Shown here piece after piece: positions 1,206 to 3,283 of a stretch of 64,000 bases of DNA. How positions within the stretch are numbered: position 1 is the first letter of the stretch; each line of letters begins with the position of its first letter. Location of the stretch: positions 23,042 through 87,041 of the forward strand of contig JANYFT010000365.1 in the NCBI GenBank assembly GCA_025359625.1, written 5' to 3'. The stretch is from Ferruginibacter sp. GTDB taxonomy: Bacteria; Bacteroidota; Bacteroidia; Chitinophagales; Chitinophagaceae. A program made the position numbers and the translations under genes. Below the pieces are notes generated by a model that was given only the letters and a program-made list of their open reading frames with translations, did no database searches and was not told the origin of the DNA.

Positions 1206-1424
1206 TTACATTTTTTTAGCTGAATCCATTTTCTTATCCATCTTCTTTGCAGCAGAATCAATTTTAACAGCAGCAGAATCTATCTTCTCAATTGCAGGAG
1301 TTGCAGCTTTAATTGAATCAGCAATTCTTGCAGAATCAATAGAAGTTGTTGCAGGTGTTTCTGTAGAATTGTTACAAGCTGTAAAAGAAGCAGCGATAGC
1401 TAATACGAAAAGTACTTTTTTCAT
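1206..1424 (-). CDS. Small lipoprotein with repeated DSA(A)-type motif
   Basis: MKKVLFVLAIAASFTACNNS: signal peptide and lipobox-like Cys, followed by low-complexity IDSA/MDSAKKM repeats. Confidence 0.65.
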   Translation of the reverse strand: MKKVLFVLAIAASFTACNNSTETPATTSIDSARIADSIKAATPAIEKIDSAAVKIDSAAKKMDKKMDSAKKM

Positions 1425-1464
1425 TTTTTGAGTTTTAATTTGTTATTTATACCCGTTAATACAA

Positions 1465-2121
1465 TTGGTTAAAAAAGGTAACCCAACTTTTTTAAAATAT
1501 TTTTTTTTCGTTGCTTTGGGTTACTATTGCACCCTATTACGTATTAATATAAGACTGGTGAATACTATAGAACAAGATCAATCATTATTGAAGGGATTAG
1601 CTGAAAACGATAAAAATTCTATTGAAACTATTTATCGTTTGAATTATTCGATGATTCAAACCTTTGTATTAAATAACAACGGTTCTGTAGATGATGCCCG
1701 TGATATTTTTCAGGAAGCGATGGTTGTGTTGTATGAAAAATCAAGAGCAACAACATTTTCCCTAAGCTGTCAAATTAAAACTTATGTATATTCCATATGC
1801 CGGCGTTTATGGCTTAAAAGATTGCAACAACTTAGTAAATTCAGTACACAAGTTGAAAGTCTGGAAGATACTGTAACTGTTGATGAGGAAATTGAAGAGC
1901 ACGAAAAGATAAACAATGATTTTATTATAATGGAACATGCCCTGGGTAAAATTGGGGAGCCTTGTAAAAGTTTGCTGGATGCTTATTACCTGCAAAAAAA
2001 GAATATGGTTGAAATAGCAGGAGAATTTGGTTACACCAATGCAGACAATGCAAAAACACAGAAGTATAAGTGTTTGATTAGATTGAAAAAATTATTTTTT
2101 GCACAATATAAAAACGCATAA
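1465..2121 (+). CDS. RNA polymerase sigma factor, sigma-70/ECF-like (start may be downstream, about 1557)
   Basis: Sigma region 2-like segment (ETIYRLNYSMIQTFVLNNNGSVDDARDIFQEAMVVLYEKSR) and a C-terminal HTH-like region (MVEIAGEFGYTNADNAKTQKYKCLIRLKKLF). Confidence 0.8.
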   Translation: MVKKGNPTFLKYFFFVALGYYCTLLRINIRLVNTIEQDQSLLKGLAENDKNSIETIYRLNYSMIQTFVLNNNGSVDDARDIFQEAMVVLYEKSRATTFSLSCQIKTYVYSICRRLWLKRLQQLSKFSTQVESLEDTVTVDEEIEEHEKINNDFIIMEHALGKIGEPCKSLLDAYYLQKKNMVEIAGEFGYTNADNAKTQKYKCLIRLKKLFFAQYKNA

Positions 2122-2126
2122 TTGAG

Positions 2127-3227
2127 ATGGAAGACATTTTACTTTTAGAAACTGTGGAGCGTTACCTGTCCGGAGATATGTCTGCGGAAGAAGTTGTAGT
2201 TTTTGAAGACCTCCGTAAAAAAAATGCAGATGTTGACCAGATGGTAGTTGAGCACACCTACTTTTTACAGGGACTGGATAAATATGGCGTAATTAAATCT
2301 TTTAAACATTCGCTGCATGAAGTGGAAGCTAACCTTTACAATGAAGGAATTTTTGACGCACCAAAATTAACCAGCAAGAAAATGGTTGTTAATTTTTGGA
2401 ATAAGTATAAACGCAACATGGCAGTTGCCGCCTCTATTGCGGGTTTTATATCACTGCTTACGCTTGGCTTAATGATCACTTACACAAAAAAATATAGCAA
2501 TGACCATTATGTCGATTTGGTAAAAGAACTGATTAAAACAAACACAGACGTATCTAAACTAAAGAACAATCATGTAATCCGTCCTGTTAATGAAAAGCCT
2601 GAACCTAAAGTAGATTTCAGGGGCACGGGATTTTTAATTGATGGTAAAGGTTACCTTGTTACCAACGCCCATGTTATTAGCAAGATGAAAAATATTTATG
2701 TAGAAAATACCAAAGGCCAATTTTTTGCTACTGCTACTGTTTACACCGACAACAATGTTGATCTGGCTATTTTAAAGATAAACGATACTGCTTTTAAAGT
2801 TATTACCAGCTTACCCTATAGCATTAAGAAAGCCAATTCAGATCTTGGTGAGCAATTTTTTACTTTGGGTTTTCCACGTGATGAAATTGTATATGGCGAG
2901 GGTTATGTGAGCGCCAAATCGGGGAACGATGGAGACACTACCTCATACCAGTTAACAGTATCTGCCAACCCCGGTAATAGTGGAGGCCCCGTTATTAACA
3001 GCAACGGAGAAATAATTGGAATTATTACTGCCAAAGATTCAAAAGCGGATGGTGTTGTTTATGCCGCTAAATCAAAAAACATTTTTAAACTATTGGATAA
3101 ACTGAAAAAAGAGGACAATAGATATGAATTAATAAAAACGCCGGTCAATACAAATTTAAAAGGATTGGAAAGAACACAGCAGGTAAAGAAAATGGAGGAA
3201 TTTGTTTACATGGTTGTTGGAAATTAA
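2127..3227 (+). CDS. Membrane-anchored trypsin-like serine protease with anti-sigma-like cytoplasmic N-terminus
   Basis: N-term VERYLSGDMSAEEVVVFEDL resembles anti-sigma N-termini; one TM (MAVAASIAGFISLLTLGLMITY); catalytic triad motifs TNAHV, NNVDLAIL and NPGNSGGPV. Confidence 0.82.
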   Translation: MEDILLLETVERYLSGDMSAEEVVVFEDLRKKNADVDQMVVEHTYFLQGLDKYGVIKSFKHSLHEVEANLYNEGIFDAPKLTSKKMVVNFWNKYKRNMAVAASIAGFISLLTLGLMITYTKKYSNDHYVDLVKELIKTNTDVSKLKNNHVIRPVNEKPEPKVDFRGTGFLIDGKGYLVTNAHVISKMKNIYVENTKGQFFATATVYTDNNVDLAILKINDTAFKVITSLPYSIKKANSDLGEQFFTLGFPRDEIVYGEGYVSAKSGNDGDTTSYQLTVSANPGNSGGPVINSNGEIIGIITAKDSKADGVVYAAKSKNIFKLLDKLKKEDNRYELIKTPVNTNLKGLERTQQVKKMEEFVYMVVGN

Positions 3228-3246
3228 AATATTAAATCCCGAAAGC

Positions 3247-3283
3247 AAAAAAAGCGACCTGGTAAAACAGGCCGCTTTTTTAT
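3247..3283 (+). terminator. Hairpin terminator AAAAGCGacCTGgtaaaaCAGgcCGCTTTT
   Basis: Inverted repeat plus T-run just after the protease stop codon. Confidence 0.7.

Follow-up and report, generated by a model that had tools for sequence, protein, structure and literature searches.

An autoregulated ECF sigma factor circuit, in which the site-1 protease is part of the membrane anti-sigma factor itself, is the account that we favour, with somewhat better than even confidence, for a gene pair in the window (the whole 64,000-nucleotide stretch of Ferruginibacter sp. DNA that was analysed). The domain make-up, the gene adjacency, the catalytic triad, the topology signals, the XAA motif in the transmembrane (TM) helix and the shared promoter motifs were established by sequence comparison. 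The kind of pathway is already known; what would be new here is RseA/DegS-type regulated proteolysis within one polypeptide and, if self-cleavage is true, the pair would represent the sigmaE envelope-stress pathway in minimal form.

The gene pair and its conservation

The pair and the parts of the second protein were located as follows.

1558 to 2121, plus strand: ECF sigma factor, 187 aa, GTG start, NCBIfam match
2127 to 3227, plus strand: whole gene of the 366-aa fusion protein, a putative membrane anti-sigma and protease
2127 to 2351, plus strand: residues 1-75, three-helix cytoplasmic domain predicted to bind sigma (anti-sigma) from profile, covariation and model
2400 to 2489, plus strand: residues 92-121, single TM helix with a basic juxtamembrane stretch before it
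2424 to 2432, plus strand: XAA motif V100-A101-A102 in the TM helix, Ala-Ala invariant
2490 to 2603, plus strand: residues 122-159, helical linker of variable sequence on the outer side of the inner membrane, presumed zone of site-1 cleavage
2604 to 3116, plus strand: residues 160-330, S1C (DegS/HtrA-like) protease domain, PDZ-less
2670 to 2672, 2760 to 2762 and 2979 to 2981, plus strand: codons of the triad H182, D212 and S285
3117 to 3224, plus strand: residues 331-366, C-terminal extension where a PDZ domain would be, with R349 and Q352 nearly invariant

The product of the first gene matched the NCBIfam model sigma70-ECF (TIGR02937) with 57.9 bits, against a cut-off of 42.9, and Pfam Sigma70_r2 at cut-off; its sigma70-ECF superfamily match, with regions 2 and 4 present and region 3 absent, places it in the ECF class. 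A second sigma paralogue, with 37% identity, was present in the same genome (G000:C201:9485-10003, L203), whose assembly comprises 4.97 Mb in 461 contigs. The sigma gene stops at 2121 and the ATG of the fusion gene lies at 2127, leaving the 5-bp gap (2122-2126) that the first-pass annotation had described. Directly 3′ of the protease gene, a hairpin followed by a T-run (3244-3282) is likely to be the terminator of the two-gene operon.

Because the fusion protein has one dominant hydrophobic segment (residues ~99-117), with K/R-rich residues just before it, and its N-terminus shows no signal-peptide-like start, the sequence implies an N-in/C-out topology. The protease domain matched Pfam Trypsin_2 (E 1.6e-23), had DegS as its best PDB sequence match (E 6e-18) and, as a predicted fold, superposed on DegS-deltaPDZ and HtrA1. 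Its trypsin-like fold and H-D-S triad are those of the S1C/HtrA-DegS peptidases, and the earlier description of a single TM followed by a trypsin-like domain with an intact triad was confirmed with H182, D212 and S285. Neither Pfam nor NCBIfam gave a PDZ match in the fusion protein, and the chain stops 36 residues beyond the protease domain, so that we did not file it as DegS or DegP; no known sensor domain, PDZ or other, was found in it.

The sigma gene was located directly upstream of the fusion gene, on the same strand, in 99 of 101 distinct relatives, contig ends cutting off the remaining two, and the spacing was mostly at most 15 nt or the genes overlapped. This consistent adjacency, a survey of which had been proposed with the initial annotation, is what would be expected of a membrane anti-sigma gene adjoining its cognate ECF sigma gene across genomes. 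The window belongs to a Ferruginibacter-like Chitinophagaceae genome, judged by its nearest relatives. Relatives occurred in most Ferruginibacter-group genomes, and 79 loci represented Chitinophaga, Terrimonas, Thermoflavifilum, Spirosoma, Rudanella, Flavobacterium and many uncultured Chitinophagales. Judged by these comparisons, the sigma and fusion pair is a conserved system in soil and water Bacteroidota.

Conservation was uneven along the fusion protein. H182, D212 and S285 were invariant in every relative covering them, R349 and Q352 of the C-terminal extension were nearly invariant among relatives, and the linker (residues 122-159) was the least conserved part. The strict conservation bears on whether the domain cuts at all, since it might instead act as a non-cutting binding sensor, like the S1C domain of Clostridium thermocellum RsgI9, which has been described as cellulose-binding (PMC12203970). 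Despite that precedent we consider a sensor of this kind highly improbable: the triad and the GNSGGP core remained unchanged in relatives down to about 31% identity, which argues for catalysis, and an invariant triad sets the domain apart from that of RsgI9.

The N-terminal domain

The first-pass annotation had likened the N-terminus to FecR-type proteins, a likeness that was not borne out, as Pfam gave no FecR match in the fusion protein or in the N-termini of 48 relatives; 7 of these 48 matched zf-HC2 weakly (best E 0.036). With the N-terminal profile, no credible relative turned up among PDB sequences and none of the named anti-sigma families was matched with confidence; its matches to nuclear receptor and hemerythrin entries (PDB, Pfam) were dismissed as chance-like. 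No paralogue of the N-terminus was detected in its own genome, even at E 10.

When 297 Bacteroidota genomes were searched with a profile of residues 1-121, proteins of ~200-275 aa were matched alongside the protease fusions, with E-values down to 1e-10. Sixteen such places were read, one of them holding another protease fusion that has a sigma of its own. The 15 others were single-TM proteins whose tails were mostly TPR and, in one case, HEAT repeats. Fourteen of them lay directly behind a sigma-like gene, the remaining one having no adjacent sigma-like gene, and all ten upstream genes that were checked matched sigma70 models, one only weakly. These proteins share with the fusion protein a homologous cytoplasmic domain, an Ala-rich TM start and the gene order from sigma to membrane protein, and differ from it in having TPR or HEAT in place of the protease as the outer part. 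The N-terminal helices thus stand next to various unrelated ECF sigmas and are joined to outer parts that are likewise unrelated, the pattern that a sigma-binding module would be expected to show.

The TPR/HEAT-tailed anti-sigma-like proteins (L205-L219) are in themselves a broad, unnamed Bacteroidota family behind ECF sigmas. In Bacteroidetes, a class I anti-sigma can be recognised in the neighbourhood of only about 6% of the ECF sigmas, a far smaller share than in other phyla (PMC7406223), and many anti-sigmas that have been reported as absent from Bacteroidota could be explained by this family. The N-terminal domain profile finds anti-sigma-like proteins beside such ECF sigmas, the protease fusion being the most self-contained of them.

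A joint AlphaFold2 model of sigma and N-terminus was obtained for a relative (L109) whose sigma stop lies in frame with the next gene. This model of 313 residues, with a pLDDT of 92.1 and a pTM of 0.82, was a read-through single chain, with Gly in place of the sigma stop and a 7-residue linker that in itself forces proximity. Since sigma alone makes up ~60% of the chain, we take the pTM to imply a confident relative placement of sigma and N-terminus. Among the nearest PDB chains were sigmas solved with anti-sigmas (AlgU-MucA, BldN-RsbN and SigE-RseA), with weak E-values; the weakness of these Foldseek matches is probably due to a differing domain arrangement. In the models, the N-terminus formed three helices, and a single further helix lay next to the membrane (juxtamembrane). 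The covariation analysis drew on 89 sequence pairs (Neff 61); columns of the N-terminus represented 22% of the partner columns but 42% of the top 50 sigma-partner couplings, and their covariation with sigma was higher than that of entropy-matched protease columns, none of 2000 resamples reaching it.

That residues 1-75 would bind sigma as an anti-sigma domain is well supported by modelling, homology and covariation. The two genes might, on the contrary, be merely co-transcribed, with an N-terminus that does not bind sigma and a protease that is simply a member of the regulon, as the N-terminus without a family match could suggest; such an arrangement seems highly improbable to us in view of the homologous N-termini that stand behind unrelated ECF sigmas with non-protease tails, of the pTM of the joint model and of the covariation between sigma and N-terminus.

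In the Cytophagales and Flavobacterium relatives (L102, L103, L106, L107 and L220) the first two N-terminal helices were absent, so the binding mode must vary; in these loci only the long helix that remains and the juxtamembrane one would be left to hold sigma.

Proposed regulated proteolysis and known systems

The Ala-Ala pair at the start of the TM helix (A101-A102) was invariant in 100 of 100 relatives covering it and was preceded by V in 73 and by I in 12 of them, giving the XAA motif that marks substrates of regulated intramembrane proteolysis. In RsgI anti-sigmas, XAA motifs of the TM, exposed by RseP, constitute a ClpXP recognition element (PMC12203970). The genome of the window carries one M50 protease gene (PF02163, E 4e-53), the site-2 protease of this type of proteolysis, and, because it still encodes this separate enzyme, at most the site-1 step would be built into the fusion protein. 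The low conservation of the linker is consistent with a cleavable tether, and no conserved cleavage site was visible in residues 122-159 among the relatives. Self-cleavage as the first cut, either within a chain or between neighbours, would be the simplest reading, and we rate its chances as about even. The original proposal that anti-sigma and protease are joined in one chain, so that proteolysis at the envelope could be tied directly to the release of sigma, was thus supported in its first half by adjacency, N-terminal homology, covariation, the joint model and the XAA motif, whereas the self-cleavage, like the activating signal and the order of the proteolytic steps, is something that we infer.

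In the favoured circuit, the N-terminal helices (residues 1-75) would keep sigma at the cytoplasmic face of the inner membrane at rest. An envelope signal would switch on the outer DegS-like domain, which would then cut the linker of its own chain or of a neighbour. RseP would next cut within the TM helix, at the invariant XAA motif, and ClpXP would degrade the freed N-terminal fragment, so that the freed sigma could transcribe its own operon, the divergent Lpp-like lipoprotein described below and other targets.

The TPR- and HEAT-tailed proteins carry the same N-terminus and must be released otherwise. This, together with a linker lacking a conserved self-cleavage site, speaks for a different role of the protease, in which the anti-sigma is real and the protease is an output of the circuit, made under stress as a membrane-tethered enzyme of envelope quality control, with sigma set free either through a change of conformation or by a site-1 protease distinct from the fusion protein. 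Autoregulation would lift the protease level along with that of sigma, and the genome also encodes one or more further HtrA-like proteins. The feedback would nevertheless be odd, as destruction of the inhibitor on release would also detach or lose the protease, and in the best-known case it is the DegS domain type that performs site-1 cleavage. We regard a protease acting as output as possible, although clearly short of probable.

An anti-sigma that contains its own site-1 protease, as we favour, would have several counterparts. The pair has in common with the sigmaE-RseA-DegS-RseP-ClpXP pathway of E. coli and with AlgU-MucA-AlgW an ECF sigma with an adjacent N-in membrane anti-sigma, a DegS-type protease domain and an M50 protease in the genome, and the Ala-Ala at the TM start is found as VAAC in E. 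coli RseA and as VAAS here. In E. coli, however, the inhibitor RseA and the protease DegS are separate and here they form one polypeptide, which lacks the PDZ sensor domain that defines DegS; in addition, unlike in the E. coli sigmaE operon, no RseB or RseC gene lies directly behind, and the promoter motif differs. RsgI9 also unites an anti-sigma N-terminus, a TM with an XAA motif and an S1C-type domain in one chain and is the closest published architecture, but it is an orphan of the sigmaI type with a self-cleaving periplasmic domain, whereas here an ECF sigma, identified by model match, is adjacent; we consider the fusion related to it but distinct. BlaR1/MecR1 combine signal sensing and a regulatory protease in one membrane protein (PMC7593790), although this is a metalloprotease with a penicillin-binding sensor and without an anti-sigma factor, and here an anti-sigma is combined with an S1C domain. 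In IutY of P. putida, sigma is fused to the anti-sigma and the protease Prc is separate (PMC8999054), so both proteins fuse two parts of a sigma/anti-sigma pathway, the anti-sigma being joined here to the protease. In the open literature that was searched, no account of a fusion between an ECF anti-sigma and an active protease of the HtrA type came up, although the ECF classification may list the family.

Divergent promoters and predicted targets

Upstream of the sigma gene, the following features were located.

1206 to 1424, minus strand: divergent small lipoprotein, 72 aa, beginning MKKVLFVLAIAASFTACNN...
1456 to 1484, minus strand: divergent promoter motif GGGTTAC-N15-GTATTAA, followed after 31 nt by the ATG of the lipoprotein, with at most one mismatch in 90 of 96 loci
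1518 to 1547, plus strand: promoter motif GGGTTAC-N16-GTATTAA on the sigma side, presumably an autoregulated promoter, without mismatch in 90 of 96 loci

The motif GGGTTAC-N14-17-GTATTAA was present at most 160 nt upstream of sigma in all 96 loci, 90 of them exact and none with more than two mismatches, while shuffled sequence gave three or more mismatches; the divergent copy was likewise found in 96 of 96 loci with two mismatches or fewer. A sigma start at TTG 1465 was ruled out, since 1465-1557 is promoter DNA, conserved as DNA and with in-frame stops in some relatives. For these reasons, and because of its position 10 nt past the -10-like element, a spacing conserved in relatives (here within 1541-1560), GTG 1558 most likely replaces it as the true start. 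The first in-frame start past the motif was a GTG located 9-14 or 3 nt downstream in 87 of 96 loci, most commonly 10, and a GTG so close behind the promoter motif indicates that the sigma mRNA is probably leaderless. From the logic of autoregulation and from co-conservation, we infer that this sigma reads GGGTTAC-N15/16-GTATTAA.

The exact motif occurred in 65 of 118 genomes, mostly as the divergent pair with 0-2 further sites, and a reversed control motif gave few matches across the same 118 genomes. Sixteen of the 28 further sites that were read precede CBM48/AMPK1-CBM-like genes (L111, L149, L152, L155-L162, L164, L165 and L169-L171), including one in the genome of the window (L111, C167:5090). 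Other sites lie ahead of genes for BON and DUF4836 lipoproteins, for a lipoprotein resembling DUF4349 and for a DUF2459 protein; the BON lipoprotein, with a site in two relatives, was dropped as a target because its homologue in the genome of the window has no site. The CBM48/AMPK-glycogen-binding-like proteins, which follow the motif in many genomes, are small and have no signal peptide, and an envelope-type sigma is thereby linked to glucan binding for no obvious reason.

The lipoprotein of the window is rich in Asp, Ser, Ala and Lys and has no aromatic residue past the lipobox Cys. A divergent small lipoprotein was encoded in 95 of 96 loci, its start mostly 29-41 nt behind the divergent motif. 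In relatives these proteins have 56-84 aa, have much Ala, Thr, Lys, Ser and Asp and nearly no aromatics, often contain seven-residue repeats and, in 75 of the 95, end in Lys, features that recall Braun's lipoprotein and would make them Lpp-like. An extended form of the favoured circuit, to which we attach a rather low probability, would have the PDZ-less anti-sigma act as its own site-1 protease with the sigma-made lipoprotein as its sensed ligand or feedback brake, for instance through an unsorted form or a Lys-rich tail that activates or occupies the protease domain. The promoter motif, the conserved lipoprotein and the predicted targets make the circuit directly testable in strains that are in culture, for example Ferruginibacter paludis or Chitinophaga pinensis. 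At one locus (L151) the divergent lipoprotein was duplicated in tandem, each copy having its own copy of the promoter.
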